From positions 1 to 34,468 of the forward strand of contig JAAYVF010000123.1 of assembly GCA_012517325.1 (NCBI GenBank): a stretch of 34,468 nt of DNA, read 5' to 3'. This DNA is from Myxococcales bacterium (GTDB lineage Bacteria; Lernaellota; Lernaellaia; Lernaellales; Lernaellaceae). Positions 3,239 through 22,691 of this stretch are shown here, in pieces (positions within the stretch are counted from its first letter, which is position 1; each line of letters opens with the position of its first letter). The notes under the pieces are model-generated. The model was not told the origin of the DNA. It was given only the letters and a program-made list of their open reading frames with translations, and ran no database searches. The translations under genes were made by a program, and so were the position numbers.

Positions 3239-5881
3239 ATGCGACCGACACCCATGGTCATTTCTTTAGCCGATGAACACCCCGCCAATGTCGCCATGTT
3301 TTTACTGGATGATCGCGGACAAATCCTTTTTTACAACACGGCCGCCGCGAAAGTCGCCAGTCTGCAACCTGAGGAAATTTTGGGCAACTCGATCAATCGA
3401 GTCGCCGGAATCCATCTCTTTTCCGCGGAACACTCTTCCTTCCCTCATTTTTCAACGAACAATGGAACCGCCGATTGCCCGCCATCGATTCATTGGAAGA
3501 TCGAGCCGTTTGGGGATTTCCAAGACGACCGAGCCCGCTATCTCGCGCTGGGCATACCGGTCTCGCCGATTGTTGAATCCGCCGCTGTGGCCAAGGATTC
3601 GTTGCATCACTTATCGAAGCTGGCCAATAAAATTCCCGTCTTCGTCGCCCTGCTCGACGATCGGAACCGTTTTCTGTTCGCGAACCAAACCGCTGTCGAC
3701 TTTTTCGGGCTGCAGCCGGCGGAAATCGTCGGCCGGCCGTTTGCCGAACTCATCGATCACGAGATCGACCAACGCTTGCTGAAATTCGCCCGCCGGGCGC
3801 TGGACGGCAAGTTGGCGCGTTTCGAGACGACCCGGCGGGATCGCATCGGCCGCGACCGGGTTTACGACGTTTTGCTGATTCCCAATTCCGGCCAGACCGA
3901 AGACGCCCGAACCTTCTTCATGATCGGCCAGGACATCACCGACAAGCGCATCGCCGAGAACGCCCTGCGCCAGAGCGAGGAACGGCATCGATTTCTCTAC
4001 AACAAGACCCCGGTGATGCTCTTTTCGATCGACGCCGCCGGGCGGATTCTGAATGTCAGCGATTATTGGCTGGACGAATTGGGATACACCCGCGAAGAAG
4101 TCATCGGCCGGGAAACGACCGATTTTCTCGGCTACTCCTCGCGGCGCGAAATGAACGAGAAAATCCTGCCGGCGTTGTTCCGGATCGGACAATGCAAAAA
4201 CGTCGAATGCCGCTTCGTGAAAAAGACCGGCGAAATCAAAGACACCTTGTTGTCGGCCATCGCGGAGCGGGACGGTTACGGCCAGTTCACCCGCGTCCTG
4301 GCGGTTCTGATCGACATCGAGGATCGCCTCATCGCCGAGGATGCCCTGCTCGAAAGCGAGCAGAAGTATCACTCGCTGCTGGAGAACATCGCGGTCGGCG
4401 TCTACCGCACCACGATCGACGAGCCCGGCCGTTACTTGCAGGCCAATTCGGCCTTGGCGCACATGCTCGGCTACGACTCGGTGGACCAGCTGCTTTCCAT
4501 TCCGGTCGCGGACTTGTACGTCGATCCGGCGGAACGCAAGGCCGTCATCGAAAAGCTGATGGAACACGGCGAGGTCAAGGACTTCGAACTGCGCCTGCGC
4601 CGCAAAGACGGTTCGAGTTTCGCCGTGTCCTGCAATTCCCGGCTGCATCGCGACGAAAAAACCGGCAACCAGTGGATCGACGGGGTGATCAAGGACATCA
4701 CCGAACGCAAGCAAGCCGAGGAGAATCGGCGGCAGCTCGAAGAACAGTTGCGGCAGTCGCAGAAAATGGAGGCGGTCGGGCGGCTGGCCGGCGGCATCGC
4801 GCACGATTTCAACAATATTTTGACGGGCATTCTCGGCTACGCCGACCTCATGCTGGCTTCGGTCGGCGACGGCAACCCGCTGCGCGGCGACATTCAGGAA
4901 ATCAAGCGCGCCGGCGGCCGGGCGGCGGATTTGACGCGGCAATTGCTGGCTTTCAGCCGCAAACAAATGATTTGCCCGGTAGTGCTGAACGTGAACGAAG
5001 TCATCGCCCATTCGCAGAACATGCTGGGGCGGATCATCGGCGAGGACATCGCGCTGCGGGTGACCGCGGCGCCCGATCTACGCCCGATCAAGGCCGACGC
5101 AGGCCAGCTCGAACAAGTGCTGGTCAACCTGGCGGTCAATTCCCGCGACGCCATGCCCGCCGGCGGCGAATTGCTCGTCGAGACGGCCAACGTGGAGTTC
5201 GGAACCATGTACCTGCGCCTGCATCCGGAGGTGGCGGATCGGCCTTACGTGATGCTGGCCGTCAGCGACACCGGCTGCGGCATGGACGCGGAAGTGAAAA
5301 GCCACCTTTTCGAGCCTTTTTTCACCACCAAGCCCAAGGATAAGGGAACCGGTCTGGGGCTGGCGACGGTCTACGGCATCGTCACGCAGAACAACGGCTT
5401 TTTACACGTCTATTCCGAGGTCGGGATCGGGACGACGATAAAAATCTACCTGCCGTGCGTTGACGAGCCGCCCTCGCACCTGCGGGATCTGCACCCCGAG
5501 GAATGGCCGCGCGGCCGGGAAACCATTTTGCTGGTCGAGGACGAGGACATGGTGCGCACGTTCGCCAAGACGATCCTCCAGCGGCAGGGATACACCGTTT
5601 ACGAGGCGACGAACGGCGGAGAGGCGCTGCTGCTCATGCAGAAAATAGGCGACCAGGTCGATCTGCTGTTCACCGACGTGATCATGCCCAATCTGAACGG
5701 CAAGGAATTGTATCAGCAACTGCGGCGCCTGCATTCGGGTTTGAAGGTGCTGTACATGTCGGGTTACACCGAAAGCGTGATCGGTACTCAGGGCCTGCTC
5801 GACGAGGGGATCCACTTTCTGCAAAAGCCGTTCAACATCAAATCGCTGGCCGGAAAAGTCCGCGAGGCGCTCGATGACTGA
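3239..5881 (+). CDS. Multi-PAS hybrid sensor histidine kinase with C-terminal receiver
   Basis: This is a predicted soluble signalling kinase of 880 residues with no transmembrane segment. Domain order is a short N-terminal PAS (about 12-60), PAS (about 122-240), PAS (about 249-370), PAS with a PAC tail ending in KDITERK (about 377-495), HisKA (about 505-570), HATPase (about 615-745) and receiver (about 760-878). The phosphoacceptor is His522 in GGIAHDFNN. ATPase boxes are NLAVNSRDAM, DTGCGM and GTGLGL. The receiver has an acidic VEDED pocket, Asp813 in FTDVIMP, and the KPF lysine. An upstream TTG (3173) is in frame but lacks a ribosome-binding site, whereas the ATG at 3239 follows TTGGGGATTC, so 3239 is preferred. 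No separate response regulator is adjacent, so output probably passes to an unlinked phosphotransfer protein. The ligand is unknown. Confidence 0.9.
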   Translation: MRPTPMVISLADEHPANVAMFLLDDRGQILFYNTAAAKVASLQPEEILGNSINRVAGIHLFSAEHSSFPHFSTNNGTADCPPSIHWKIEPFGDFQDDRARYLALGIPVSPIVESAAVAKDSLHHLSKLANKIPVFVALLDDRNRFLFANQTAVDFFGLQPAEIVGRPFAELIDHEIDQRLLKFARRALDGKLARFETTRRDRIGRDRVYDVLLIPNSGQTEDARTFFMIGQDITDKRIAENALRQSEERHRFLYNKTPVMLFSIDAAGRILNVSDYWLDELGYTREEVIGRETTDFLGYSSRREMNEKILPALFRIGQCKNVECRFVKKTGEIKDTLLSAIAERDGYGQFTRVLAVLIDIEDRLIAEDALLESEQKYHSLLENIAVGVYRTTIDEPGRYLQANSALAHMLGYDSVDQLLSIPVADLYVDPAERKAVIEKLMEHGEVKDFELRLRRKDGSSFAVSCNSRLHRDEKTGNQWIDGVIKDITERKQAEENRRQLEEQLRQSQKMEAVGRLAGGIAHDFNNILTGILGYADLMLASVGDGNPLRGDIQEIKRAGGRAADLTRQLLAFSRKQMICPVVLNVNEVIAHSQNMLGRIIGEDIALRVTAAPDLRPIKADAGQLEQVLVNLAVNSRDAMPAGGELLVETANVEFGTMYLRLHPEVADRPYVMLAVSDTGCGMDAEVKSHLFEPFFTTKPKDKGTGLGLATVYGIVTQNNGFLHVYSEVGIGTTIKIYLPCVDEPPSHLRDLHPEEWPRGRETILLVEDEDMVRTFAKTILQRQGYTVYEATNGGEALLLMQKIGDQVDLLFTDVIMPNLNGKELYQQLRRLHSGLKVLYMSGYTESVIGTQGLLDEGIHFLQKPFNIKSLAGKVREALDD

Positions 5882-6436: not shown

Positions 6437-7693
6437 ATGACGCACGTTAAACTACATCGCCGCATCAGCCTGATCGAGAACATGAAGATCTCGCTGCGCG
6501 CGGTCGGCGCGAACAAGCTGCGTTCCGGCCTGACGAGCCTGGGCATCATCATCGGCGTCGCCACCGTGATCGCCATGCTGTCCATCGTCGGCGGCATCAA
6601 CCAGATCGTCTCCAGCGAGTTCGAACGCCTCGGAGCGAACGTTTTCATTTTACAGAAATACCCGGCGATTTCGATCACCTTCGATTGGCATAAGTTCCAC
6701 AACCGGAAGGATCTCGAAATCGAGGACGTCGAGGCGCTCAAGCGTTCCTGCCCCTCCCTCGACCTGATCAGTCCGCTGATTTTCAACTGGCGCGGCGACG
6801 TCGTGCATGCCGAGGGCAAGAAGACCGATCCCGACGTGCAGGTGGCCGCGGTGACCGAAACCTACCTGCCGGTGAGCGGCATGTCGCTGGACCTGGGCCG
6901 CAATTTCCTGCCGCAGGAAGCGGTCGCCGGCACGCACGTCGCGGTGCTGGGCTACGATGTCATGGAAAAATTGTTCGCCTTCGGCAGCCCGATCGATCGG
7001 TTCATCCAGGTCCGCGGCGATCGCTACCGCGTGATCGGCCTGGTCGAACGGCAAGGCGCGATTTTCGGCGAAAGCCGCGACAACATCGTCGCCATTCCGT
7101 TCGGCGCGTATGCCAGCAAGTGGCAAATCCGGGACCAACTCGAAATCTACCTCAAGGCGAAGGAAGGCGTGCCGGTCGAGCAGGCGATGGACGAAGTGCG
7201 GGCGGTGATGCGCATCCGCCACAAGCTGAAGCTGACCGAAACCGACGACTTCGAACTGGTCACCCGCGACAGCCTGATGAGCACTTACCAGAGCATGACC
7301 GGATCGATTTTCATCGCGGCGATCGGCATCGCTTCGATCTCGCTGCTGGTCGGCGGCATCGGCATCATGAACATCATGCTGGTCTCGGTGCGCGAGCGCA
7401 CCCGCGAGATCGGGGTCCGCAAGGCGCTGGGCGCGCGCCGGCGCGATATCTCCCGCCAATTTTTGATCGAGTCGATCACCCTGTCGCTCCTCGGCGCGAC
7501 GATCGGCATCGCTCTGGCCCTGGGGTGCTTGAAACTGGCGACCTCCTTCACCGACAGCCTGCCCGTGACCTATTCCAGTTCGAGCGTTTTGCTGGCGGTG
7601 GGTTTCGCGATGCTGGTCGGTGTGTTCTTCGGTGTCTACCCGGCGCGCAAGGCCGCCGCCCTGGATCCGATCGAGGCGCTGCGGTACGAATAA
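6437..7693 (+). CDS. MacB/FtsX-family ABC transporter permease
   Basis: This 418-residue permease has the MacB architecture. A short cytoplasmic N-terminus leads to a first membrane helix (about 33-55, LTSLGIIIGVATVIAMLSIV), then a large periplasmic MacB_PCD domain of about 220 residues. A C-terminal FtsX domain with three helices follows, including GGIGIMNIMLVSVRERTREIGVRKA, the signature region of this family (split here by helix and loop). Such permeases act as dimers with a cognate ATPase in mechanotransmission, often with an adaptor and outer membrane channel. No ATPase, adaptor or channel gene is nearby, so the partner must be encoded elsewhere. The ATG at 6437 is used; an ATG at 6482 is a weaker alternative. 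It lies 68 bp upstream of a secreted Asp-tailed protein on the same strand. Confidence 0.88.
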   Translation: MTHVKLHRRISLIENMKISLRAVGANKLRSGLTSLGIIIGVATVIAMLSIVGGINQIVSSEFERLGANVFILQKYPAISITFDWHKFHNRKDLEIEDVEALKRSCPSLDLISPLIFNWRGDVVHAEGKKTDPDVQVAAVTETYLPVSGMSLDLGRNFLPQEAVAGTHVAVLGYDVMEKLFAFGSPIDRFIQVRGDRYRVIGLVERQGAIFGESRDNIVAIPFGAYASKWQIRDQLEIYLKAKEGVPVEQAMDEVRAVMRIRHKLKLTETDDFELVTRDSLMSTYQSMTGSIFIAAIGIASISLLVGGIGIMNIMLVSVRERTREIGVRKALGARRRDISRQFLIESITLSLLGATIGIALALGCLKLATSFTDSLPVTYSSSSVLLAVGFAMLVGVFFGVYPARKAAALDPIEALRYE

Positions 7694-7761: not shown

Positions 7762-9300
7762 ATGCGCCGAACCGTGCTGATTCTATTTTGCCTCGCCCTC
7801 GCGAGTGGCATCGCCTGGCGGTCCGTCGCGGCCGCGCGGGCCGACGACGATCCCGCCCTGCTGGCCAAGGCCCAGGCCTACGATACCGGCGTGCGCGACC
7901 GGCACGTGCCGGGATACGGCGGCATCGTGCAAGCGCTCTACGAAACCGAGGATCTGCAGACCATCCTGATGTATCGCGGCCAGGGCGATTCCACCATGTG
8001 GACCTCCACCTACGGCGCCTCGCAGGCCTTCCGTTACGCGGTGACCGGCGACGCGGACGCCAAGGCCAACGCCATTGCCGCCGTCCAGACGTTGAACGAC
8101 CATTTGCGCGTCACGCAGACCACCGGCTACGTCGGGCGCTACGTCGGACCGGTCAGCGACCCGGCCTTCTGGCTCGATTACGCCGGCAGCGAAATCCTGC
8201 TGTACGGCTCCGGCCTCTGGCTCGGCACCTTCTACCTCTCCAACAGTTCTTCCGACCAATACGACGGCTTCTTTCACGGCCTTTCGGTCATCTACGATCT
8301 GGTCGACGACGCCCCGACGCGCGCGCTGATCAAGTCGATGATCAAGGAAGTCATCGACAAATTGCGCGCCAGCTACTGGTTCATCCTCAACGAGGACGGC
8401 CTGCCGACCACCGCCGCGCCGCAGATCGACGGCACCGAGCGGATCGCCTTCGCGCTGATCGCGGCGCATATCCTCGACACCGAGGAGTACTGGAATCTTT
8501 ACGCGCAGGTTTATGAGGAGGAGAAACCGGGCTTGCCGCTTTCGGCGATCTCGTTCTTCAACAAGTACACCGAATATTTCGCCAACAACCTGCGGCACCA
8601 GAATTTCTATACGCTCTTCACGATGGATCCCGACGACGAACGGGTCGCCTACTTCTTCCGCGTATTCATGGACAAGGTCCGGCCCTGGGTCGAAAACACC
8701 CACAACGTGTATTTCGACTGGGTTTACCTGACGGCCTGCCAGCGGCTCGACCGTTGCCGGGGCTCGCAGGCGATCATGGAAGACGGCGTGGCGATGTTGG
8801 GGCAGTTCACCGAGCCGCCCAACCGCGAAATTCACATCGATCCGCCGGCCGCCGCGGTCGACCCGATTTCGCAATGGCTGGTCGATTTTCAGAGCACCCT
8901 CCCCGATTGGCTGGGCGATCTGCTCGATTTTCAATTACAGGCCAAGGAAGCCTACCCGGTCGAATACCGCTGCCGGCAGGAATATTTGTGGCAACGCAGT
9001 CCGTTTCAGATGCAGTGCGCCGGATTCCTGCCGCAGCACGTCATGCCGGGCGTCGATTACCTGATGGCCTACTGGATGGGCCGCTATTACGACTACCTGG
9101 AACCGCACGACATCGACGGCCCCCCGGATGACGACACTACCGACGACGACAATGATGACAACGACGACAACGATGATACCGCCGGCACCGACGACGATAC
9201 GCGGACGGACGACGACACCACTTTACCGCCGGATGATGACACCTCGGGAAATGCCGAGGACAACGATGACGATTACGGAGACACCTGCTGCGGCATCTGA
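7762..9300 (+). CDS. Secreted protein with Asp-rich tail and Cys-Cys C-terminus
   Basis: This 512-residue exported protein has an AAGGAG 5 bases before the ATG and a clear signal peptide (MRR, hydrophobic core to about residue 20, then AARADD). The long body (about 30-450) is helix-rich, with repeated Trp/Tyr-containing segments such as GDSTMWTSTYGASQAF and SDQYDGFFHGLSVIYDLVDD. This reminds me of six-hairpin alpha/alpha barrels as in some glycosidase-like proteins, but no catalytic motif can be named. Residues about 456-504 are an Asp/Thr/Asn low-complexity tract, and the protein ends YGDTCCGI. The same tail style recurs in the protein at 18753-20447. The frame is open upstream of 7762 only as an overlap with the permease. 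Function unknown; an extracellular or surface location is likely. Confidence 0.8.
   Translation: MRRTVLILFCLALASGIAWRSVAAARADDDPALLAKAQAYDTGVRDRHVPGYGGIVQALYETEDLQTILMYRGQGDSTMWTSTYGASQAFRYAVTGDADAKANAIAAVQTLNDHLRVTQTTGYVGRYVGPVSDPAFWLDYAGSEILLYGSGLWLGTFYLSNSSSDQYDGFFHGLSVIYDLVDDAPTRALIKSMIKEVIDKLRASYWFILNEDGLPTTAAPQIDGTERIAFALIAAHILDTEEYWNLYAQVYEEEKPGLPLSAISFFNKYTEYFANNLRHQNFYTLFTMDPDDERVAYFFRVFMDKVRPWVENTHNVYFDWVYLTACQRLDRCRGSQAIMEDGVAMLGQFTEPPNREIHIDPPAAAVDPISQWLVDFQSTLPDWLGDLLDFQLQAKEAYPVEYRCRQEYLWQRSPFQMQCAGFLPQHVMPGVDYLMAYWMGRYYDYLEPHDIDGPPDDDTTDDDNDDNDDNDDTAGTDDDTRTDDDTTLPPDDDTSGNAEDNDDDYGDTCCGI
9127..9273 (+). repeat. Asp-codon low-complexity tract
   Basis: A GAC/GAT-rich tract encodes runs of Asp interrupted by Thr, Asn, Ala, Gly and Pro, just before the C-terminal DTCCGI of the secreted protein at 7762-9300. 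The mixture of GAC and GAT codons keeps it from being a perfect trinucleotide repeat. The Asp-x-Asp spacing resembles calcium-binding thrombospondin type 3-like stretches. Confidence 0.85.
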
Positions 9301-12081: not shown

Positions 12082-12111
12082 TTGTTAGCTTGGGATTCTT
12101 TGCGCTAAAAT
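12082..12111 (+). promoter_or_regulatory. Predicted sigma70-type promoter for metH
   Basis: TTGTTA (12082-12087) and TAAAAT (12106-12111) are separated by 18 bases, matching 4/6 and 5/6 of the sigma70 consensus. Transcription would begin near 12118. The -10 box overlaps the ATG at 12110, so that ATG would not be in the transcript. This supports the later TTG start of metH. About 90 bases of AT-rich leader would follow. Confidence 0.5.
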
Positions 12112-12194
12112 GCAAACGAAAAATCCGGAATTGAGCAATAAAAAAGCGCCCAATTCTTTTCTGAAAAATATTATCCATCGGTCGTCCGATTATC

Positions 12195-12203
12195 GGGAGA
12201 AGG
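12195..12203 (+). promoter_or_regulatory. Ribosome-binding site deciding the metH start
   Basis: GGGAGAAGG lies 5 bases before a TTG at 12209 in the metH frame. There is no comparable site before the ATG at 12110, whose upstream sequence is TTTGCGCTAAA. It is the best Shine-Dalgarno-like sequence in the 5' part of the gene. Confidence 0.6.
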
Positions 12204-12208
12204 CAAAG

Positions 12209-15200
12209 TTGGATCTGTTAGCGTCGGCTCGAAAACGTATTCTTTTGCTTGACGGCGCCATGGGCACCGAGATTCAATCTTTGCGCCTACCGGACGAAGC
12301 CTTCGACGGGAAAACCGGCTGCAACGAAATACTCGTTCTGACCGTACCGGAAAAAATCCGTGAAATTCATTTGAATTATCTGCGCGCGGGCGCGGATGTG
12401 ATCGAAACCAATACCTTCGGCGCCAATCCGCTCGTCCTGGCCGAATACGGGCTGGCCGAAAAAACCGAAATAATCAACGAAACCGCCGCCCGCCTGGCGC
12501 GTGAGGCCGTCGCCGAAATCGGCACCGCCGACCGGCCGCGTTTCGTTTCGGGCTCGATCGGGCCGGGAACCAAACTCCCGACCCTGGGACAGATCGGTTA
12601 CGAGGAATTGTTCGAGAATTATTCCCGCCAGATCGCCGGCCTACTCGACGGCGGCGTAGACCTGCTGCAGATCGAAACGGTGCAGGACCTGTTGCAAGCC
12701 AAGGCCGTTCTCGCCGCGGCCGCGGCCGTCATGGCCCGCAAGCGGCGCGTGCCGCTGTACGTTTCGGTGACGATCGAACAAACCGGCACGCTGCTGACCG
12801 GCACCGATCTGCCGGGCGCGATCGCGATTCTCGAACCCTTCGGCATCGATATCCTGGGGCTGAACTGCGCCACCGGCCCGCTGGCGATGCGCCCGCACCT
12901 GGAAACCCTCGCCGGACTCTGGCCCGGATTGATCGGCGTTTACCCCAATGCCGGCCTGCCACTGCCGTGCGCGACCGGGATCTGCTATCCGGAATCGCCG
13001 GAAGCCTTTGCGCAAACATTGCGCCGTTTTCTCGCGGAACTGCCGATTCATTTCGTCGGTGGTTGCTGCGGCACGACGCCCGCGCACATCCGCCGCCTGG
13101 CCGCCGCGATCGCGGAGTTGCAACCGCTGCCGTCGCGGGCCGTCGCCGTGCCGGCGCTCGCCAGCCTGTTTAACGCCGTCACGATCCGCCAGGATCCGCC
13201 GCCGCTGTTTGTCGGCGAACGCGCCAACGCCACCGGCAGCAAGGCCTTCCGCGACGCGCTGCTGGCCGGCGATCACGACGCGGCGTTTGAAATCCTGAAC
13301 GAGCAGGCCGATTACGGCAGTCACGCCGCCGACCTGTCGGTCGCCTACGCCGGCCAGGATGAAGCGGCGCACATGGACGCGCTGATGCGGCGCGCCGCCA
13401 AGGAATGCCGGCTGCCGATTTTCATCGATTCGAACCTGTCCGCGGTGGTGGAAATCGCGCTTCGGCGGTATCCGGGCCGAGCGGTGATCAATTCGATCAA
13501 TCTCGAGGACGGCGGCAAGCGGGCGGCGGCGATCTGTCCCCTGGCCCGCCAATTCGGCGCCGGGATCATCTGCCTGACGATCGACGAGGACGGCATGGCG
13601 ATGACCGCCGACCGCAAGGTGTCGATCGCCAAACGGTTGGTCGAGCTGTGCGTCCGGGAATACGGCCTGCGCCCGCAGGACCTGTTCATCGACACGCTCA
13701 CCTTCACCATCGGCTCGGGCGATCCGAGCCTGCGCGGCGCGGCGGTGGAAACGATGGAGGCCATCCGGCGCGTCAAAGTGGAAATCCCCGGCGTGCACTG
13801 CCTGCTGGGCTTGTCGAACGTCAGTTTCGGGTTGTCGCCCAAGAGCCGCAAGGTGCTCAATTCGGTGTTTCTGGATTGTTGCCTGAAAGTCGGCCTCGAC
13901 GCGGCGATTCTCAATCCCAAGCACATCTTTCCGCTGGCGCAATTGAACGAGACCGATGTCGAGCGCGCACTCGATCTGATTTACGCCCGCTCGGCCGACG
14001 GCCGCGATCCGCTGGAGGCGTTCATCAACCATTTCGCAGGCCGGCCCGAACTGGAAGACGAAAAACAGACGGCGGCGCTGCCCCCGGCCGAGGCGGTGTT
14101 TCAGGGCATCACTAAGGGGCAGACCGCGCTCGTGCTGAAAAACCTGCCGGCGCTGCTCGCCGCGCGTTCGGCGGAAGACATTCTCAACGACTTGCTCGTC
14201 CCCGCCATGAAGCAGGTCGGCGAATGGTTCGGCGCGGGAAAAATGCAATTGCCCTTCGTGCTGAAAAGCGCCGAAGCGATGAAACGCGCGGTGGACGCGC
14301 TCAAGCCCCATTTCGGGGCGGCCGGCCCGGCGGGCCCCGCGAAAAAACTGCTGCTGGCCACGGTGCGCGGCGATGTGCACGACATCGGCAAGAACCTGGT
14401 GGACATCATCGTCGGCAACAACGGTTTCGCCGTGGCCAACATCGGCATCAAGGTGCCGGTCGAAGTCATCATGAGCGAGACGAAAAAACAGGGCGCCGAC
14501 GCGGTGGGCATGTCCGGCCTGCTGGTCAGTTCGGCATTGATCATGGCCGAAAACCTGCGGGCGATGACCGACGCCGGTCTGACGCTGCCTGTGCTGGTCG
14601 GCGGGGCCGCGCTGACGCCGGAATTCGTGCGCGACACGCTGGCGCCGGCCTACCCGAACGGCACGGTCACTTACTGCGCCGACGCCTTCGCCGGCCTGCA
14701 AGCCATGCAGGAAATCGCCGCCGGGCGCTCGCCCGTCTCGCCGGCGCCGTCAACGGAAAGCCCGTTGACCCGCGATTCCTACGCGCCGGAGCCGCTACGC
14801 ATCGCCCGGATCGAGGCGCCCGTTCCGCCCTTCTGGGGCAGCCGGGTCACGCGATCGCTGCCGCTGGATTCGGTGCTGAGCTACGTCAACAAAATCGCCT
14901 TATTCCGCGGGCGCTGGGGTTACCGGCGCGGCGACCTGCCCCGGGACGAATTCCAGCGCCTCATGCGGACGGAAGTGCAGCCCAAATTCCGCGAGCTGGT
15001 GCGCGTGGTCAAAGCCGAAAAACTGTTCGCGCCGCAAATCGTCCACGGCTATTTCCACGGCCGTGCCGAGGGCGACGCGGTGGTGGTCGAACACGAGGGG
15101 CGCGTCTGGCGGTTCCCCTTCCCGCGCCGCCGGACCGAGCCGCGCCTCTGCCTCGCCGATTTTCTGCGGCCGGACGACGACACGGTCGGCTTTTTCGTCG

Positions 15201-15586
15201 TAACGCTCGGCGGCGCGACGGCGGAACGCGGCCGGGAGATTTTCGCCCGGCACGAATACCTCGACTACTTCCTGCTGCACGGGCTGGCGGTCGAGGTGAC
15301 CGACGCGTTGGCCGAATACGCGCACGAAACGATGCGCCACGAGCTGGGCATCGGCGAACCGCGACGCCTGAACTGGCAGGAACTGGTGACGCAAAAATAT
15401 CGAGGCAGCCGGTACGGCTTCGGTTATCCGGCCTGCCCCGACCTGGCCGCGCACCGGGCCGTCTTCGATCTGCTGCAACCCGAACGCCTCGGCGTTGAGC
15501 TGGCCGAGTCCGATCAGCTGGTGCCGGAGTATTCGACGGCGGCGATCGTGCTGCACCATCCGCAAGCGAAGTACTTCGCGGTGTAA
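12209..15586 (+). CDS. metH: Cobalamin-dependent methionine synthase
   Basis: This four-module MetH transfers the methyl group of methyltetrahydrofolate through cobalamin to homocysteine. Numbered from the in-frame ATG at 12110, the homocysteine module has zinc ligands Cys253 (LNCATGP) and Cys319/Cys320 (GGCCGTTP). The pterin module starts near PLFVGERANATGS. The cobalamin module carries DVHDIGKN with axial His757. The C-terminal activation domain ends with the SAM-binding YGFGYPACPD motif, so reactivation by SAM and an electron donor is expected. I prefer the TTG at 12209 (1125 residues). It has a strong ribosome-binding site, and the extra 33 codons are Asn/Lys/Ser-rich and AT-rich, unlike the rest of the gene. 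The alternative is ATG 12110 (1158 residues). The metF-like gene follows 67 bp downstream. Confidence 0.93.
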   Translation: MDLLASARKRILLLDGAMGTEIQSLRLPDEAFDGKTGCNEILVLTVPEKIREIHLNYLRAGADVIETNTFGANPLVLAEYGLAEKTEIINETAARLAREAVAEIGTADRPRFVSGSIGPGTKLPTLGQIGYEELFENYSRQIAGLLDGGVDLLQIETVQDLLQAKAVLAAAAAVMARKRRVPLYVSVTIEQTGTLLTGTDLPGAIAILEPFGIDILGLNCATGPLAMRPHLETLAGLWPGLIGVYPNAGLPLPCATGICYPESPEAFAQTLRRFLAELPIHFVGGCCGTTPAHIRRLAAAIAELQPLPSRAVAVPALASLFNAVTIRQDPPPLFVGERANATGSKAFRDALLAGDHDAAFEILNEQADYGSHAADLSVAYAGQDEAAHMDALMRRAAKECRLPIFIDSNLSAVVEIALRRYPGRAVINSINLEDGGKRAAAICPLARQFGAGIICLTIDEDGMAMTADRKVSIAKRLVELCVREYGLRPQDLFIDTLTFTIGSGDPSLRGAAVETMEAIRRVKVEIPGVHCLLGLSNVSFGLSPKSRKVLNSVFLDCCLKVGLDAAILNPKHIFPLAQLNETDVERALDLIYARSADGRDPLEAFINHFAGRPELEDEKQTAALPPAEAVFQGITKGQTALVLKNLPALLAARSAEDILNDLLVPAMKQVGEWFGAGKMQLPFVLKSAEAMKRAVDALKPHFGAAGPAGPAKKLLLATVRGDVHDIGKNLVDIIVGNNGFAVANIGIKVPVEVIMSETKKQGADAVGMSGLLVSSALIMAENLRAMTDAGLTLPVLVGGAALTPEFVRDTLAPAYPNGTVTYCADAFAGLQAMQEIAAGRSPVSPAPSTESPLTRDSYAPEPLRIARIEAPVPPFWGSRVTRSLPLDSVLSYVNKIALFRGRWGYRRGDLPRDEFQRLMRTEVQPKFRELVRVVKAEKLFAPQIVHGYFHGRAEGDAVVVEHEGRVWRFPFPRRRTEPRLCLADFLRPDDDTVGFFVVTLGGATAERGREIFARHEYLDYFLLHGLAVEVTDALAEYAHETMRHELGIGEPRRLNWQELVTQKYRGSRYGFGYPACPDLAAHRAVFDLLQPERLGVELAESDQLVPEYSTAAIVLHHPQAKYFAV

Positions 15587-15653
15587 AAGAACGCTTCTAT
15601 CCGGCGGCGTTTTGTTTTATTGTGCATCCCATCCGGGAGGGTGAACCGCAACC

Positions 15654-17483
15654 ATGGCCGCGAAAACGTTGGTGGAATGGATCAAGGACCGGGTCGTCAT
15701 TTTCGACGGCGCGATGGGCACGGAACTGTACAAACGGCATCAGTTCGTCAACGTCTGTTACGATCAACTCAGCCTGACCCAACCGGAGATCGTCAAGGAA
15801 ATTCACCGCGCCAACAAACGCGCCGGCGCGGACGTCCTGACCACCAACAGTTTCGGCGCCAACCGCCGCAAGCTGTCGGGGTTCTTGCTCGGCGATCAGA
15901 CCTTCGCCATCAACAAGGCCGCGGCGGAAGTCGCCCGCGAGGTGGCCGGCGACGAATTGCTGGTCGCCGGCAGCGTCGGCCCGCTCGATCTGAGCGTCGG
16001 CATGGGCGGTTTCCCGGAAGACCAGGCGATTTCGCTCTATATGGAATCCATCCACGGCCTGAAGGAAGGCGGGGTGGATTTCATCATCTTCGAAACCTTC
16101 AGCCGCCGCGAAAACCTGCTGGCCGCGATCCGCGCCGCCGCGCGATTGGAAATGCCCTACATCCCCAGCATGGCGGTCGGCGAGCAGGGCATCACCCGCC
16201 ACGGCGAGACGATCGAACACTTTTACGCGCCCTTCCCGGCCGATCTGCCCGCGCCGCTGCTGCTCGGTTTCAACTGCGGCGTCGGCCCGGCCGAATGGCT
16301 GGAACTGCTCGAACGTTTCGTGCCGGGTTCGCCCTACCCGGTGCTGGTGCAACCCAACGCCGGCCTGCCCAAGTTCGTCAACGACCGGATGATCTACATG
16401 ACCAGCCCGGAATATTTCCTGACCTACGCCCTGCATTTCGTGCAGATCGGCGTACGGGCGATCGGCGGTTGCTGCGGCACCGGGCCGGAGCACATTCACG
16501 AGTTGACCGCCGGCGTCAAAGCGCTGCACAAAAAGCACGTCGAGGTCCGGGAACTCTCGCGGGAAAAGGTCGAATTGCGGGAACCCTGCCCGACCGAAGT
16601 GAAATCGCGTTTCGCCTGGAAGCTCGCCCACCGGCAATGGGTGACCAGCATCGAGATCGTGCCGCCGCTCGGCTTCGACATGAACCCGACGGTCGAGCGC
16701 GCCCGCGCCTGCAGCATCCAGGGCGTCGACGCGATCAACATCCCCGACGGTCCCCGCGCCAGTTCGCGCGTCAGCCCGCTGATCGCCGCGCTGACGATCC
16801 AGCAACGCGTCGGCATCGAGGTGATCCTGCACCTGACCTGCCGCGACCGCAACATCATCGGCATGCAATCCGACCTGCTCGGCTGCGCGGCGGCCGGCAT
16901 CAGCAACGTTTTGATCATCACCGGCGACCCGCCCAAACTGGGCGATTATCCCTTCGCGACGGCGGTGTTCGACCTGGACGCCATCGGCTTTACCAGCATC
17001 GCCGCGCGGCTCAACCGCGGCGTGGATATCGGCGGCCATCCGGTCGATCCGGCCACCTGTTTTTTGATCGGCGTCGGCGCCGACCCGTCCCACCTTGATC
17101 AAAAACGGGAAATCGACCGGCTGCACCAGAAAATCGCGGCCGGCGCGGAGTACGTAATCACCCAACCGATCTTCGACGTCGACGTCCTGATGCGTTTTCT
17201 GGAAAAGATCGGCGATCTGCCGGTGCCGATCATCGCCGGCATCTGGCCGCTGGCCAGTTTGCGCAACGCCGAGTTCCTCAACAACGAAGTGCCGGGCGTC
17301 ACGGTACCGGCCTGGATTCTCAAGCGCATGGCGGCGGCCTCGGCCAGCAAGGAAGCCGCCCGCGCCGAAGGGATCGCCATCGCCCGCGAACTGCGCGACC
17401 AGATCCGGCCGCACATCGCGGGCATTCAGGTCAGCGCCCCGTTCGGCAACGTTCAGACGGCGCTGGCGGTCACCGCGCCCTGA
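15654..17483 (+). CDS. Homocysteine S-methyltransferase / methylenetetrahydrofolate reductase fusion
   Basis: This 609-residue two-domain protein has YitJ-like architecture and length. The N-terminal homocysteine methyltransferase domain (about 1-290) has FDGAMGTELY, the zinc ligand in GFNCGVGP, and the paired Cys in GGCCGTGPEHI. The C-terminal domain (about 310-609) is a MetF-type TIM-barrel flavoprotein that reduces methylene- to methyltetrahydrofolate. It starts near TSIEIVPPLGFD and includes HLTCRDRN and ITGDPPK. The reductase half can supply methyltetrahydrofolate to MetH just upstream, and the methyltransferase half is a second homocysteine domain in tandem with MetH. A GGGAGG lies 13 bases before the ATG, a little far. 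A rubredoxin gene follows 12 bp downstream. Confidence 0.9.
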   Translation: MAAKTLVEWIKDRVVIFDGAMGTELYKRHQFVNVCYDQLSLTQPEIVKEIHRANKRAGADVLTTNSFGANRRKLSGFLLGDQTFAINKAAAEVAREVAGDELLVAGSVGPLDLSVGMGGFPEDQAISLYMESIHGLKEGGVDFIIFETFSRRENLLAAIRAAARLEMPYIPSMAVGEQGITRHGETIEHFYAPFPADLPAPLLLGFNCGVGPAEWLELLERFVPGSPYPVLVQPNAGLPKFVNDRMIYMTSPEYFLTYALHFVQIGVRAIGGCCGTGPEHIHELTAGVKALHKKHVEVRELSREKVELREPCPTEVKSRFAWKLAHRQWVTSIEIVPPLGFDMNPTVERARACSIQGVDAINIPDGPRASSRVSPLIAALTIQQRVGIEVILHLTCRDRNIIGMQSDLLGCAAAGISNVLIITGDPPKLGDYPFATAVFDLDAIGFTSIAARLNRGVDIGGHPVDPATCFLIGVGADPSHLDQKREIDRLHQKIAAGAEYVITQPIFDVDVLMRFLEKIGDLPVPIIAGIWPLASLRNAEFLNNEVPGVTVPAWILKRMAAASASKEAARAEGIAIARELRDQIRPHIAGIQVSAPFGNVQTALAVTAP

Positions 17484-17495
17484 CGAGGTCTGCCG

Positions 17496-17657
17496 ATGGA
17501 TGACAAATGGGTGTGCATCAACTGCGGCTTCATTTACGACCCGACGCACGGCGACCCGGCGCGCGGCTTTCCGCCCGCCACGCCGTTCGAGCGCCTGCCC
17601 GATAACTGGACGTGCCCGATCTGTTACGCGGCGAAGTCATCGTTCGATCGCTTGTAG
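17496..17657 (+). CDS. Rubredoxin
   Basis: This 53-residue rubredoxin is an electron carrier with a single iron on four cysteines. The first pair is CINCG (Cys7, Cys10), followed by FIYDP, GDP, PPATPFERLPDNW, and the second pair CPIC (Cys40, Cys43). Everything matches classic rubredoxin except that the residue after the last Cys is Tyr44 rather than the usual Gly. The ATG follows TGACGAGG by 7 bases, and the gene starts 12 bp after the methylenetetrahydrofolate reductase fusion, so co-transcription is likely. This suggests, but does not show, a redox link to the reductase or to MetH reactivation. It is short and easily missed beside a longer out-of-frame reading. Confidence 0.93.
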   Translation: MDDKWVCINCGFIYDPTHGDPARGFPPATPFERLPDNWTCPICYAAKSSFDRL

Positions 17658-18752: not shown

Positions 18753-20447
18753 ATGAAACCGAAACGGATTCTCCTGTGGATGACGGCAATTCTGTTATTG
18801 GCCGCTTCCCCGTTGTTCGCCGAATACGGAGATTGGGAAAAAATTTACAGCATCGGCGGAACGCCGGGATTCTCCAACGCGGCTTTCATGAGCCTGGGCA
18901 TCGGCGATCCGGACAACCTGTACACCGCCGGCATTCAGCAGACCGGCGGCATGTCGATCACTTACGCCTGGGACAGCCACGACGGCGGCTACACCTGGTC
19001 GCCGCTGATCGAAACCTCCGCCAGCGGTGAAGGCTGCGACATCATGTCGCTGTTTTCCTTCGTGATCACCGCCGGCGCGACCAATGCCGACTCCGCGGTA
19101 TTCGCCGGCATCCAGGTTTCGCCGGAATGCATCGAGGAAAACGAGTTCCCGGCCTGCATGTTCAAGTGCATGTTCCTGCTGGAACCGGTGGTGCACATCA
19201 CGACCGACGGCGGCGAGACGACGCAGCAAGCCACGATCACCGGCGCCGGCATGTACAACATGATCATGGCGTTCACGTTCGTCGATGAAACCATCGGCTA
19301 CGGCGCCGGCGTGCCGAACCTGCTGGTGCGGACGCAGGACGGCGGCCTTTCCTGGACCAAGCTGGCCGCCCCCGGCAACATCGCCACCTACTACAACGAC
19401 GTGCAATTCTTCGACGCCAACACCGGCTACCTGGTTTCCGGCGTCCCGGAAGAAGAGAAAAAATCGGGCGATTCGCCGCGGGAAAAATACGAAGAACTGA
19501 TGTTCGCCCTGAAATGGATGAAAGACCCGATCTTCCGGATGAACTGGCGCGAACAGCATCCGGACCAGGACGACAAAGGCCAGCTCGGCAAATTCTGGCG
19601 CACCACCGACGGCGGCGGGACCTGGGAAAATCCCTTCTCTTACGCCAACGCCAGCTTCCTCAATATCGAAATGGTCGACGAGGAAACCGGCTTCATCCTC
19701 GGCGAACCGCACACCGGCACGTATCCGGTCATTCTCTTCAAAACCACCGACGGCGGCGACACCTGGACCGATATTTCGGCGCGCCTGCCGCAGGATCTGC
19801 CCAATGTTTTGAAATGGGCGGTTTCCTCACTCGCCTTCCAGCCGATTTTCGGCGAAACCGGCTTCATCGGCGGCGTCGGCCAGAGTTTTTCCGGTTACCA
19901 GCCGATCCTGTTCTACACGGCGGACCTGGGCGAATCCTGGCAGTTTGACGAAACCGTGACCGACCTCGCCAACCCGATCATGCAACTGAAATGGGCGAAT
20001 CCGAAAACCGCCTTCACCGTCGGCTTCGAGCTCTCGGTCTTCAAATACACGCAGGAAAACGTGCCGCCGATGGCCGATGCCGGTGAGGATGGCGTTGGTG
20101 AAACCGGCCAGGAAATCACCCTGGACGGCTCGGCTTCGTTCGATTACGACGACGATCCGCTGACCTATCACTGGACGCAGATCGACGGCCCGAACGCGAC
20201 CATCGCCGATCCGACCGCCGCCGTGACGACCTTCGTCGTTTCCGACCCCGGCTCACCGATCTTCCAATTGACCGTCAACGACGGCCAGGAAGACGGCTCC
20301 GATTCGGTGACCTACACCGTCACCCAGGGCGCCGACGATGACGACACCGGCGCCGACGACGACAACGCCGACGACGACGCTTCGCCGACCGACGACGACA
20401 ACGCCGACGACGACGATGACGACGACAACGGCGGCTGCGGTTGCTGA
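18753..20447 (+). CDS. Secreted beta-propeller/PKD-like protein with Asp-rich tail and GCGC C-terminus
   Basis: This 564-residue exported protein has a signal peptide (MKPKR, hydrophobic core, then SPLFAEYGD). The first about 430 residues contain BNR/Ycf48-like propeller repeats with Asp-box motifs: DGGYTWSP, DGGLSWTK, DGGGTWEN and DGGDTWTD. A PKD/REJ-like beta-sandwich follows (about 443-524, PPMADAGEDG through SVTYTVTQ), with LDGSASFDYDDDPLTYHWTQ marking the family. Residues about 526-559 are an Asp/Asn/Ala tract, and the chain ends NGGCGC. AGAAGGAG lies 8 bases before the ATG; upstream in-frame codons to 18669 fall in the leader. The propeller architecture suggests surface or extracellular binding, with no catalytic motif. 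It shares its tail style with the protein at 7762-9300. Confidence 0.85.
   Translation: MKPKRILLWMTAILLLAASPLFAEYGDWEKIYSIGGTPGFSNAAFMSLGIGDPDNLYTAGIQQTGGMSITYAWDSHDGGYTWSPLIETSASGEGCDIMSLFSFVITAGATNADSAVFAGIQVSPECIEENEFPACMFKCMFLLEPVVHITTDGGETTQQATITGAGMYNMIMAFTFVDETIGYGAGVPNLLVRTQDGGLSWTKLAAPGNIATYYNDVQFFDANTGYLVSGVPEEEKKSGDSPREKYEELMFALKWMKDPIFRMNWREQHPDQDDKGQLGKFWRTTDGGGTWENPFSYANASFLNIEMVDEETGFILGEPHTGTYPVILFKTTDGGDTWTDISARLPQDLPNVLKWAVSSLAFQPIFGETGFIGGVGQSFSGYQPILFYTADLGESWQFDETVTDLANPIMQLKWANPKTAFTVGFELSVFKYTQENVPPMADAGEDGVGETGQEITLDGSASFDYDDDPLTYHWTQIDGPNATIADPTAAVTTFVVSDPGSPIFQLTVNDGQEDGSDSVTYTVTQGADDDDTGADDDNADDDASPTDDDNADDDDDDDNGGCGC
20334..20429 (+). repeat. Asp-codon low-complexity tract
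   Basis: A GAC-dominated tract encodes Asp runs broken by Ala, Asn, Thr, Gly and Pro, directly before the terminal GGCGC of the propeller protein. It is nearly a GAC trinucleotide repeat near 20404-20429 (seven Asp codons, then Asn), so replication slippage could change its length. Confidence 0.85.
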
Positions 20448-20788: not shown

Positions 20789-21613
20789 ATGTCGGCTGAT
20801 TATCAACGATTGATCGCGCATTTGCGCGATTACAAAAGGGCCGCGATCGCCTTTTCGGGAGGCGTGGACTCGTCGTTGCTGTTGGCGGCGGCGAAAGACG
20901 CCCTGGGCGACGAGGTTTTAGCGCTGATCGGCGTTTCGCCGACCCTGCCGCAACGTGAATTGCGGGAGGCGCAGGCGCTTTGCGACACCCTCAAGGTTCG
21001 TTATCAACTGGTGCAAACAGCCGAAATGGACGATCCGCATTATCGGGCCAACTCCGATCGGCGCTGCTACTATTGTAAAAAATATTTGTACCAGGCCTTC
21101 TTGCAGGCCGCCCGAAACCACGATTATTCGACCGTTCTCGAAGGCAGTAATCGCGACGATTTGAGCGACTACCGTCCGGGGATGGAAGCGCTGCGCGAAC
21201 TGGGCATCCGCTCGCCGTTCGTCGAACTGAACATCGGCAAGGAGCAAATCCGCCAAATGGCCCGCGAGCGCGGCCTGACGGTGTGGGACAAACCCGCGGC
21301 GGCCTGCCTGGCTTCGCGCATCCCTTACGGCGAGCCGATCGACGCGGAAAAACTCGCGCGAATCGAACGGGCCGAGGACTCGCTGCACGATCTGGGCTTT
21401 CGCCAGGTGCGCGCCCGCGACCACGGCGGCCTGGTGCGGATCGAAGCCGCGCCGGAGGATTTGCCCAAACTGCTCGACCCCGCCAAGCGGGAAGCCGTCG
21501 TCACGGCCATGAAAAGCGCGGGCTACCTCTATGTCTCCCTGGATTTGCAGGGTTACCGGCGCGGCGCGATGAACGAAGCGCTGCCCCCGGCGGAAAACGA
21601 TGAACCGAAGTGA
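20789..21613 (+). CDS. larE: LarE-like PP-loop sulfurtransferase
   Basis: This 274-residue PP-loop ATPase is of the LarE family. The loop FSGGVDSSL is at residues 22-30. A CxxC lies at Cys93/Cys96 in RRCYYCKKYLY, and a third Cys173 in PAAACLASRIPYGEP, the position of the sulfur-donating Cys in sacrificial LarE. A CxxC plus this Cys is the pattern I associate with [4Fe-4S]-dependent LarE enzymes rather than the suicide type (inference). LarE normally sulfurates the nickel-pincer precursor together with LarB and LarC, neither of which is here. AAGGAGCGGGC precedes the ATG. The gene overlaps mnmA by 14 bases. The real substrate may differ from that of lactate racemase maturation. Confidence 0.85.
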   Translation: MSADYQRLIAHLRDYKRAAIAFSGGVDSSLLLAAAKDALGDEVLALIGVSPTLPQRELREAQALCDTLKVRYQLVQTAEMDDPHYRANSDRRCYYCKKYLYQAFLQAARNHDYSTVLEGSNRDDLSDYRPGMEALRELGIRSPFVELNIGKEQIRQMARERGLTVWDKPAAACLASRIPYGEPIDAEKLARIERAEDSLHDLGFRQVRARDHGGLVRIEAAPEDLPKLLDPAKREAVVTAMKSAGYLYVSLDLQGYRRGAMNEALPPAENDEPK

Positions 21614-22691
21614 ATCGCCGACCGTGCTGGTCGCCATGAGCGGCGGCGTGGACAGCACGGTCGCCGCGGCGCTGCTGCGCGAACAGGGCTACCACGTCGT
21701 CGGCGCGACCCTGCGCCTGCACGATCTCACCCCACCCGGCGCGGCGGCCGCCTGCGGCGACCCGTCCGGCGTGGCGGCGGCGGAACAAGCGGCAAAATTC
21801 CTGGGCATCGAGCATCGGGTGATCGACGGCCGCGACCGCTTTCGCGAGGCCGTGCTCAAGGCCAGTTGGGACGATTACGCGAACGGCCGGACGCCCAACC
21901 CGTGCACCTGGTGCAACCGCGAACTCAAGTTCGGTTTCCTGTGGGAAACGGCCCGCGACCTGGGCGCGGCAATGATCGCGACCGGCCATTACGCCCGCCT
22001 CGTGCCGGGCGAAGGCGCCGTCGAACTGTATCGCGGCCGCGACCCGCAGAAGGATCAATCGTATTTTCTGTTCGCGCTGACCGCCGAGCAGCGGGCCCGC
22101 TCGCTGTTGCCGCTGGGCGAATACACCAAGCCCGAGGTGCGCGAACTGGCCCGCCGCCTGGGCGTGGCCAACGCCGAGCGGACCGAGAGCCAGGACGCCT
22201 GTTTCGCCTCCGGTGACGAAATTTTCGCCGAGGATCTGCGCCGCTTTTTTCAGGCGCCGGGCCGCGCCGGAACGATCGTGGATGAAAGCCGGCGGATTTT
22301 AGGCCGGCACGAAGGCCTGCACCGCTTCACGATCGGCCAACGGCAGGGTTTGGGCGTCGCCCTGGGAAAACGGGCCTGGGTCGAGCGGATCGACGCGGCC
22401 GACGCAACGGTGGTTGTCACGACCGATCCTGAACGGTTGCGGGCGAGCGGTCTGGTCGCCGCGCCGGTGTGCTGGTCGCGCGAACCCTGGGTCGGCCCTT
22501 GCGAAGTGCAGATCCGCTACCGGCACAAAGCGTCGCCCGCCCGGATCGAGATGGCGGATGCCGCGACCGCCGTGGTACGCTTCAATCAACCCTTGCGAGC
22601 GGTGACGCCCGGCCAAGCGGCGGTGTTCTACGACGGTGACCGCGTCATCGGAGGCGGCTGGATTCGGGAAGCGCTCGTCGGCGCCGAATGA
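21600..22691 (+). CDS. mnmA: tRNA 2-thiouridylase MnmA
   Basis: This 363-residue enzyme should thiolate U34 of Glu, Gln and Lys tRNAs. The PP-loop AMSGGVDST is at 12-20. The nucleophile region NPCTWCNRELKFG carries Cys105 as the canonical catalytic Cys, with an extra Cys102 making a CxxC. The second canonical Cys is Cys201 in ESQDACFASGD. Other hallmarks are ATGHYARL, DQSYFLF, and the C-terminal FTIGQRQGLG and VRFNQPLRAVTPGQAAVFYDGD barrel. The start overlaps larE by 14 bases with GCGGAAAACG before the ATG, so translation is probably coupled. Length is typical. Cysteine desulfurase and TusA-type sulfur donors are not in the window. Confidence 0.93.
   Translation: MNRSESPTVLVAMSGGVDSTVAAALLREQGYHVVGATLRLHDLTPPGAAAACGDPSGVAAAEQAAKFLGIEHRVIDGRDRFREAVLKASWDDYANGRTPNPCTWCNRELKFGFLWETARDLGAAMIATGHYARLVPGEGAVELYRGRDPQKDQSYFLFALTAEQRARSLLPLGEYTKPEVRELARRLGVANAERTESQDACFASGDEIFAEDLRRFFQAPGRAGTIVDESRRILGRHEGLHRFTIGQRQGLGVALGKRAWVERIDAADATVVVTTDPERLRASGLVAAPVCWSREPWVGPCEVQIRYRHKASPARIEMADAATAVVRFNQPLRAVTPGQAAVFYDGDRVIGGGWIREALVGAE

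Follow-up and report, generated by a model that had tools for sequence, protein, structure and literature searches.

Among described sorting signals, the closest to the one reported here is MYXO-CTERM (TIGR03901; MrtX/MrtC/MrtP), in which a GCGC-type cysteine motif follows a flexible tract on dozens of Sec-exported proteins of varied folds and is itself followed by a transmembrane helix and an arginine-rich cytoplasmic end. In the published model, a lipid is first attached to the cysteine of this motif and MrtX then cleaves immediately beyond it, the lipid itself being a prediction only (PMC11980579). GlyGly-CTERM/rhombosortase, PEP-CTERM/exosortase, PGF-CTERM/archaeosortase and LPXTG/sortase likewise use C-terminal homology tags carried by many unrelated exported proteins, and all of these tags consist of a motif, a helix and basic residues and are cleaved by a membrane protease. 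In Lgt/LspA lipoproteins, the lipid-bearing cysteine is N-terminal. Acidic residues beside it drive surface export in Bacteroidetes (the LES motif; K-(D/E)2, SDDDD; PMC5080379), and lipoproteins exported by the type II secretion system (T2SS) of Acinetobacter baumannii have an Asn/Asp-rich or Gly/Ser-rich stretch at this position (PMC12802150).

The tag described here, found in Candidatus Lernaellota, differs from the C-terminal signals listed above in being a motif only. Its consensus is DDDDDDSGCGC-stop, that is, an Asp-rich tract with CGC or CSC as the last three residues and no membrane helix. With MYXO-CTERM it shares the cysteine motif after a flexible tract and the wide range of exported carriers, whereas the helix and the arginine cluster are absent and the protein ends at the second cysteine. 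With the lipoproteins it shares a cysteine, one or two small residues and an acidic stretch; however, its cysteine is C-terminal, and the proteins have type I signal peptides without a lipobox. No paper on such a tag was found in the open-licence literature. The explanation favoured here, with a probability of about 0.6, is that (D-rich tract)-(S/G)-GCGC-COOH anchors proteins to the cell surface and is specific to this phylum; it would correspond to a MYXO-CTERM without the helix, combining a lipidated cysteine anchor with an acidic sorting element.

Two tagged proteins in the window

The window, the whole stretch of 34,468 nucleotides that was analysed, encodes two tagged proteins, P0001 and P0002, with the following features.

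18753..20447, forward strand: P0001, tagged exported protein (signal peptide, Ycf48-like/BNR repeats, PKD domain, Asp tract, NGGCGC end)
18753..18821, forward strand: predicted type I signal peptide of P0001, MKPKRILLWMTAILLLAASPLFA, without a lipobox (sequence; crude predictor)
20058..20324, forward strand: PKD domain of P0001 (PF18911, residues 436-524)
20334..20426, forward strand: Asp-rich tract of P0001, proposed surface-sorting linker (sequence; D/N profile)
20427..20447, forward strand: canonical CGC tag of P0001, NGGCGC at the C-terminus plus stop codon (sequence; terminal-residue counts)
7762..9300, forward strand: P0002, tagged exported protein (signal peptide, alpha-barrel body, Asp tract, DTCCGI end)
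9127..9282, forward strand: Asp-rich tract of P0002 (sequence)
9283..9300, forward strand: drifted variant of the CGC tag in P0002, TCCGI at the C-terminus plus stop codon (sequence; orthologue ends)

The initial annotation had pointed to a layout common to these two proteins. The signal peptide, body and Asp tract were indeed found in both, and the bodies were unrelated (BLASTP between the two, E 1.7), but the two endings were not equivalent: NGGCGC of P0001 is canonical and DTCCGI of P0002 belongs to a minority variant. P0001, with its Ycf48-like propeller and PKD domain downstream of the signal peptide, is a typical member of the tag family. Judging from its orthologues, which end in GGCGC, GSGCGC or GGGCGC, the CCGI end of P0002 has drifted from the canonical tag.

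No Pfam or PDB relative of P0002 was found by sequence. Its AlphaFold model (mean pLDDT 90.9) was largely helical and showed a weak resemblance, with a best E of 7e-4 and a TM of about 0.4, to (alpha/alpha) barrels, for example those of cellobiose 2-epimerases and of the GH9 endoglucanase CelD. The family is large, without a Pfam family of its own, alpha-barrel-like in fold and expanded in Lernaellota, with many matches per genome: 14 in the window's own genome (G000) and up to 27, fragments included, in G003. Its members are possibly surface carbohydrate-active enzymes.

Among the gene neighbours of both tagged proteins, no dedicated tag locus was obvious within the window, since the surrounding genes include those for a MacB/FtsX-like permease (6437-7693), a methionine synthase (12110-15586) and an MnmA-like tRNA thiolase (21600-22691). 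An ORF of 650 codons on the reverse strand (15597-17549) had no Pfam match.

Abundance and conservation of the tag

The pattern DDD..CxC-stop gave 97+42 = 139 raw matches, overlapping start points included, in the 5.25 Mb of G000, compared with 1 match for the reversed control. For DDxxCGC-stop, the corresponding numbers were 30 and 0. The tag is therefore far beyond chance. In about 0.94 Mb of this genome, 67 ORFs had an Asp-rich end that finished in a cysteine motif, and extra loci brought the number of CGC/CSC tails to 70; these are minimum numbers, as they were drawn from sequence selected around the hits. Thus, at least 70 distinct proteins of G000 have an Asp-rich tract and a CGC/CSC end. 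The larger family predicted from the two tails in the window was borne out, and the outcome was the opposite of finding no further proteins with this ending.

Among 82 Asp/Asn-rich C-termini sampled in G000, 70 ended in CGC/CSC, a share biased upward because the sample was chosen around CGC hits. Nine lacked the CGC but had a cysteine within four residues of the end (GCGD, GCGN, GSCGS, GGC, GGCI, CCGI and others), and the remaining three had none or were doubtful. In 66 Cys-ended tails, cysteine occupied positions -3 and -1 without exception (66/66), glycine position -2 in 65, glycine position -4 in 51, and glycine or serine position -5 in 49. The initial suggestion of a shared sorting or attachment tag was supported. 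Once the variants were included, the proximal cysteine was the more constant of the two, and the CCGI end of P0002 therefore fits the minority class.

Synonymous codons of the tag varied freely (TGC/TGT; GGC/GGT/GGG/GGA), and TGA, TAG and TAA were all used as stops, which indicates conservation at the protein level. Low-complexity Asp tracts expand easily, and an expansion of GAC repeats running by chance into a Cys-rich end would need no function. Such an origin is hardly credible, given an invariant CGC whose codons vary synonymously and which precedes any of the three stops, a control of 30 to 0, conservation across three families of the phylum and the near absence of the strict pattern from other phyla. 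Read-through of the stop codon into a hidden helix was also rejected: all three stops were used and there was generally no helix downstream. Transmembrane-like sequence was found 3' of the stop in 7 of 198 frames, and most of these seemed to be fortuitous or to belong to the beginning of a following gene. The proteins thus end at the motif, and the earlier statement that neither a helix nor basic residues follow it was correct.

Signal peptides were predicted for 84% of the tagged proteins and 39% of background ORFs (p 4e-10; home-made predictor, uncurated gene starts). They were mostly of type I; lipobox-like sequences occurred in 4 of 69 tagged proteins, and one of these looked plausible.

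Distribution of the tag

The tag was present in 7/7 examined genomes of the phylum Candidatus Lernaellota, which is listed as a phylum at NCBI, and it was kept across three families; the genomes were probably assembled from metagenomes, and frameshifts occur in G003. One genome (G005) had seemed tag-less under the strict pattern only, and the tag was found there on closer search. Dialects of the tag were observed, GCCGC in G002 and GCCG in G004. The latter genome belongs to a different family of the same class; GCCG-stop replaces CGC-stop in it (L154, L156, L168, L169), and it has a canonical-motif Lgt and no Lgt of group C (see below).

Outside the phylum, 80 genomes gave one match to the strict pattern and two to its reversed form. 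A scan for DDDxGCGC-stop over 84,980 genomes, one per species, returned many matches in one genome, FR-FEN-1099-1, and scattered single matches elsewhere. Wherever enough sequence was available to judge, the matches of FR-FEN-1099-1 were Asp-rich C-termini of long ORFs. We take FEN-1099 to be the placeholder name of the present Candidatus Lernaellota. The two names co-occur in the literature (PMC13248872, PMC11382960), and the phylum given here for the window depends on this equivalence. The scattered matches in other phyla were rejected as true tags, nearly all of them being fortuitous short frames that lacked an Asp tract. Hence, in these scans the tag appears phylum-specific, being nearly absent outside Candidatus Lernaellota.

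Matches in Terrisporobacter and Clostridium metagenome-assembled genomes (L123, L124) lay in a conserved frame of small size that contains hydrophobic stretches and has DDDDCGCGC or DDDGGCGC at its end. This frame is unrelated to the tag and resembles a small Gly/Cys-rich protein of Clostridia.

Relationship to MYXO-CTERM

Neither P0001 nor P0002 matched TIGR03901 (below the model cut-off). The generic GCGC cysteine motif of MYXO-CTERM is nevertheless present near the C-terminus of the tagged proteins, and a few proteins matching TIGR03901 were found in each of 6/7 Lernaellota genomes. A four-gene cluster of G000 (C122; L261, L080) includes DDDDDDDDGCGC-VIGGGADGAGLAFAMLALGLAALAVSLRKKR, in which the Asp-GCGC motif is followed by a helix and RKKR, and a similar cluster of G003 encodes DDDDDDDGCGC-SVTGGKASGFALPALMLMIGVFAYVLGLRRSR. 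The helix-bearing proteins carry the same DDDDDGCGC motif as the helix-less tag of the same genomes; in the sampled sequence of G000, there were 4 of them compared with about 70 helix-less proteins. The main helix-bearing proteins found were tandem small Cys-rich proteins with full MYXO-CTERM tails, located in G000:C122 and in G003:C25 at about 4000-5000 (L263). The tag had initially been set apart from the known ones, and this view had to be changed: the common tag is the MYXO-CTERM motif minus the helix and the arginines, and the genes that encode it end where the MrtX cut would fall.

A CPBP protein of the myxosortase family (Mrt_core) scored 118 bits in G000, with a cut-off of 100; scores over or near the cut-off were obtained in G000, G005 and G004, and a weaker one in G002. 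Together with the full MYXO-CTERM proteins, such candidate myxosortases occur in most of the genomes with the tag. However, G001, which is 99% complete, had no match to TIGR03901 or PF02517, yet it contained 21 strict tag sites. A myxosortase as the obligatory enzyme of the tag is therefore unsupported, and processing by a dedicated enzyme, another early suggestion, seems unneeded, at least of the myxosortase type.

Mirror-image anchors

Homologues without the tail, which the initial annotation had regarded as potential evidence against the tag, turned out to favour it. In 29 members of the P0002 family that were read, the tailed ones had type I signal peptides, and the tail-less paralogues, wherever the N-terminus was available, had a lipobox cysteine followed directly by an Asp tract, e.g., LSAC-GDDDDDDDNVAVDDDD. 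The family tree showed one clean split between the tailed side and the lipobox+Asp side. The one apparent exception to this split (L175) is a frameshifted gene with the tail on its second half.

A second family with swapped anchors comprised the lipoproteins of L059 and the tagged proteins of L085 (E 1e-28), so the two anchors are interchangeable within protein families. None of the 26 lipobox+Asp proteins in the G000 sample had a CGC end, and two seemingly double-anchored proteins (L126, L106) proved to be artefacts once their sequences were inspected. Apparently, the N-terminal lipobox+Asp anchor and the C-terminal tag are mutually exclusive.

The D/N profiles read outward from the cysteine were alike at both types of anchor (r = 0.82, compared with -0.25 when one was reversed). 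In each, two small residues precede a cluster of acidic ones, and the acidity dips at 10-14 residues and then rises again. The same genomes thus encode, on other proteins and also on paralogues, an Asp-rich lipoprotein anchor at the N-terminus of which the tag is the mirror image.

These results bear on two other explanations. As most members have two cysteines and are exported, hence probably to an oxidising location, the CGC end might form disulfide bonds, either to a scaffold on the cell surface or between tagged proteins, the Asp tract being a calcium-binding or repulsive spacer. Nevertheless, the single-Cys variants GCGD, GCGN, GGC and GGCI retain the tract and the position, which argues against an obligate CxC disulfide, and the lipobox swap in two families and the overlap with MYXO-CTERM favour a lipid; a disulfide tether is unlikely. 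It is quite unlikely that the tail is a transport signal without an anchor, read by the T2SS or another secretion machine that then releases the protein, with the cysteine as a recognition element only. A T2SS cluster is present and the tail lies at the extreme C-terminus, like some secretion signals; however, the same Asp tract also stands beside lipobox cysteines, where the cysteine is the expected lipid site, and paralogues exchange the tail for a lipobox anchor. Lipidation of the terminal cysteine, one of the functions first considered for the tail, is the leading mechanism, to which the MYXO-CTERM overlap and the lipobox swap point.

Candidate machinery

Each of the 7 Lernaellota genomes contained three genes of the Lgt family, while 3 or more Lgt matches were found in only 4/109 genomes of other phyla. 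One of these four, G034 (9 Mb), was the sole genome of 80 tested with several MYXO-CTERM matches. Orthologous groups read off the alignment, without a tree, placed Lgt A and B in 7/7 Lernaellota genomes and C in 6/7, G004 having a canonical-motif Lgt instead. The Lgt genes of G000 are located at C87:48576-49424, C27:44104-44862 and C7:33151-33879 (L231, L239, L259), and a GCCxG motif replaces the canonical GNFxNxE. Nothing telling was found in the Lgt gene neighbourhoods, and no paralogue was linked to the tag specifically. Since the excess is a single evolutionary event in one phylum, it is a correlation and a lead, not proof. For the T2SS, GspD family matches were found in 7/7 Lernaellota genomes (over the cut-off in 6/7; split in G002), and G003 has a GspC-C-D-E-F run.

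An isoprenoid or other thioether lipid attached by an enzyme unrelated to Lgt was also considered. Rab GTPases with CXC, CC or CCXX ends are geranylgeranylated, and the tag ends CGC, CSC, CCGC, CCGI and CCG overlap these types; in both cases, the C-terminus ends in cysteines and cleavage is unneeded. The likeness is a resemblance only: Rab proteins are eukaryotic and cytosolic and lack an Asp tract, and their modifying enzyme is cytosolic, whereas the tagged proteins are exported. This explanation is improbable, and an Lgt-family acyltransferase is preferred as the candidate.

Discussion

The proposed anchoring would proceed as follows. The type I signal peptide would export the protein through Sec, as the sequences support for most members. 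Next, an acyltransferase of the membrane, probably encoded by one of the three Lgt-family genes, would S-lipidate the terminal cysteine motif. C-terminal cleavage would be unneeded because the gene already ends at the presumed myxosortase cut. Finally, the acidic tract beside the lipidated cysteine would sort the protein to the cell surface, probably via the T2SS, a step drawn from the acidic residues beside the N-terminal lipid cysteine in other bacteria, and the lipidated end would hold it at the outer membrane.

What is hardest to explain is how a soluble tail would reach an acyltransferase in the membrane, as there is no hydrophobic segment, unlike in known Lgt or myxosortase substrates. 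Speculatively, an uncleaved signal peptide could keep the protein at the membrane for this enzyme. The two conserved cysteines of CGC also exceed the strict need of one lipid site, which speaks against lipidation as the best explanation.

A more far-reaching reading, offered tentatively and with less than even odds, is that the tagged proteins form a second, mirror-image class of bacterial lipoproteins, in which an encoded C-terminal cysteine is lipidated without a helix or proteolysis by a dedicated Lgt paralogue and the acidic export signal is read in reverse. If this is true, MYXO-CTERM anchoring could do without both its helix and its sortase step.

In Candidatus Lernaellota, the motif alone serves as the tag of dozens of proteins phylum-wide, beside a few full MYXO-CTERM proteins and lipoproteins anchored in mirror image at the N-terminus. 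The tag hints at the form of a mature MYXO-CTERM terminus, and the question of which enzyme lipidates the MYXO-CTERM cysteine becomes testable, with three Lgt paralogues as candidates. Should the tag be functional in laboratory hosts, proteins could be displayed on the surface by means of a very short C-terminal extension. For the uncultured phylum itself, it is a simple predictor of the surface proteome.
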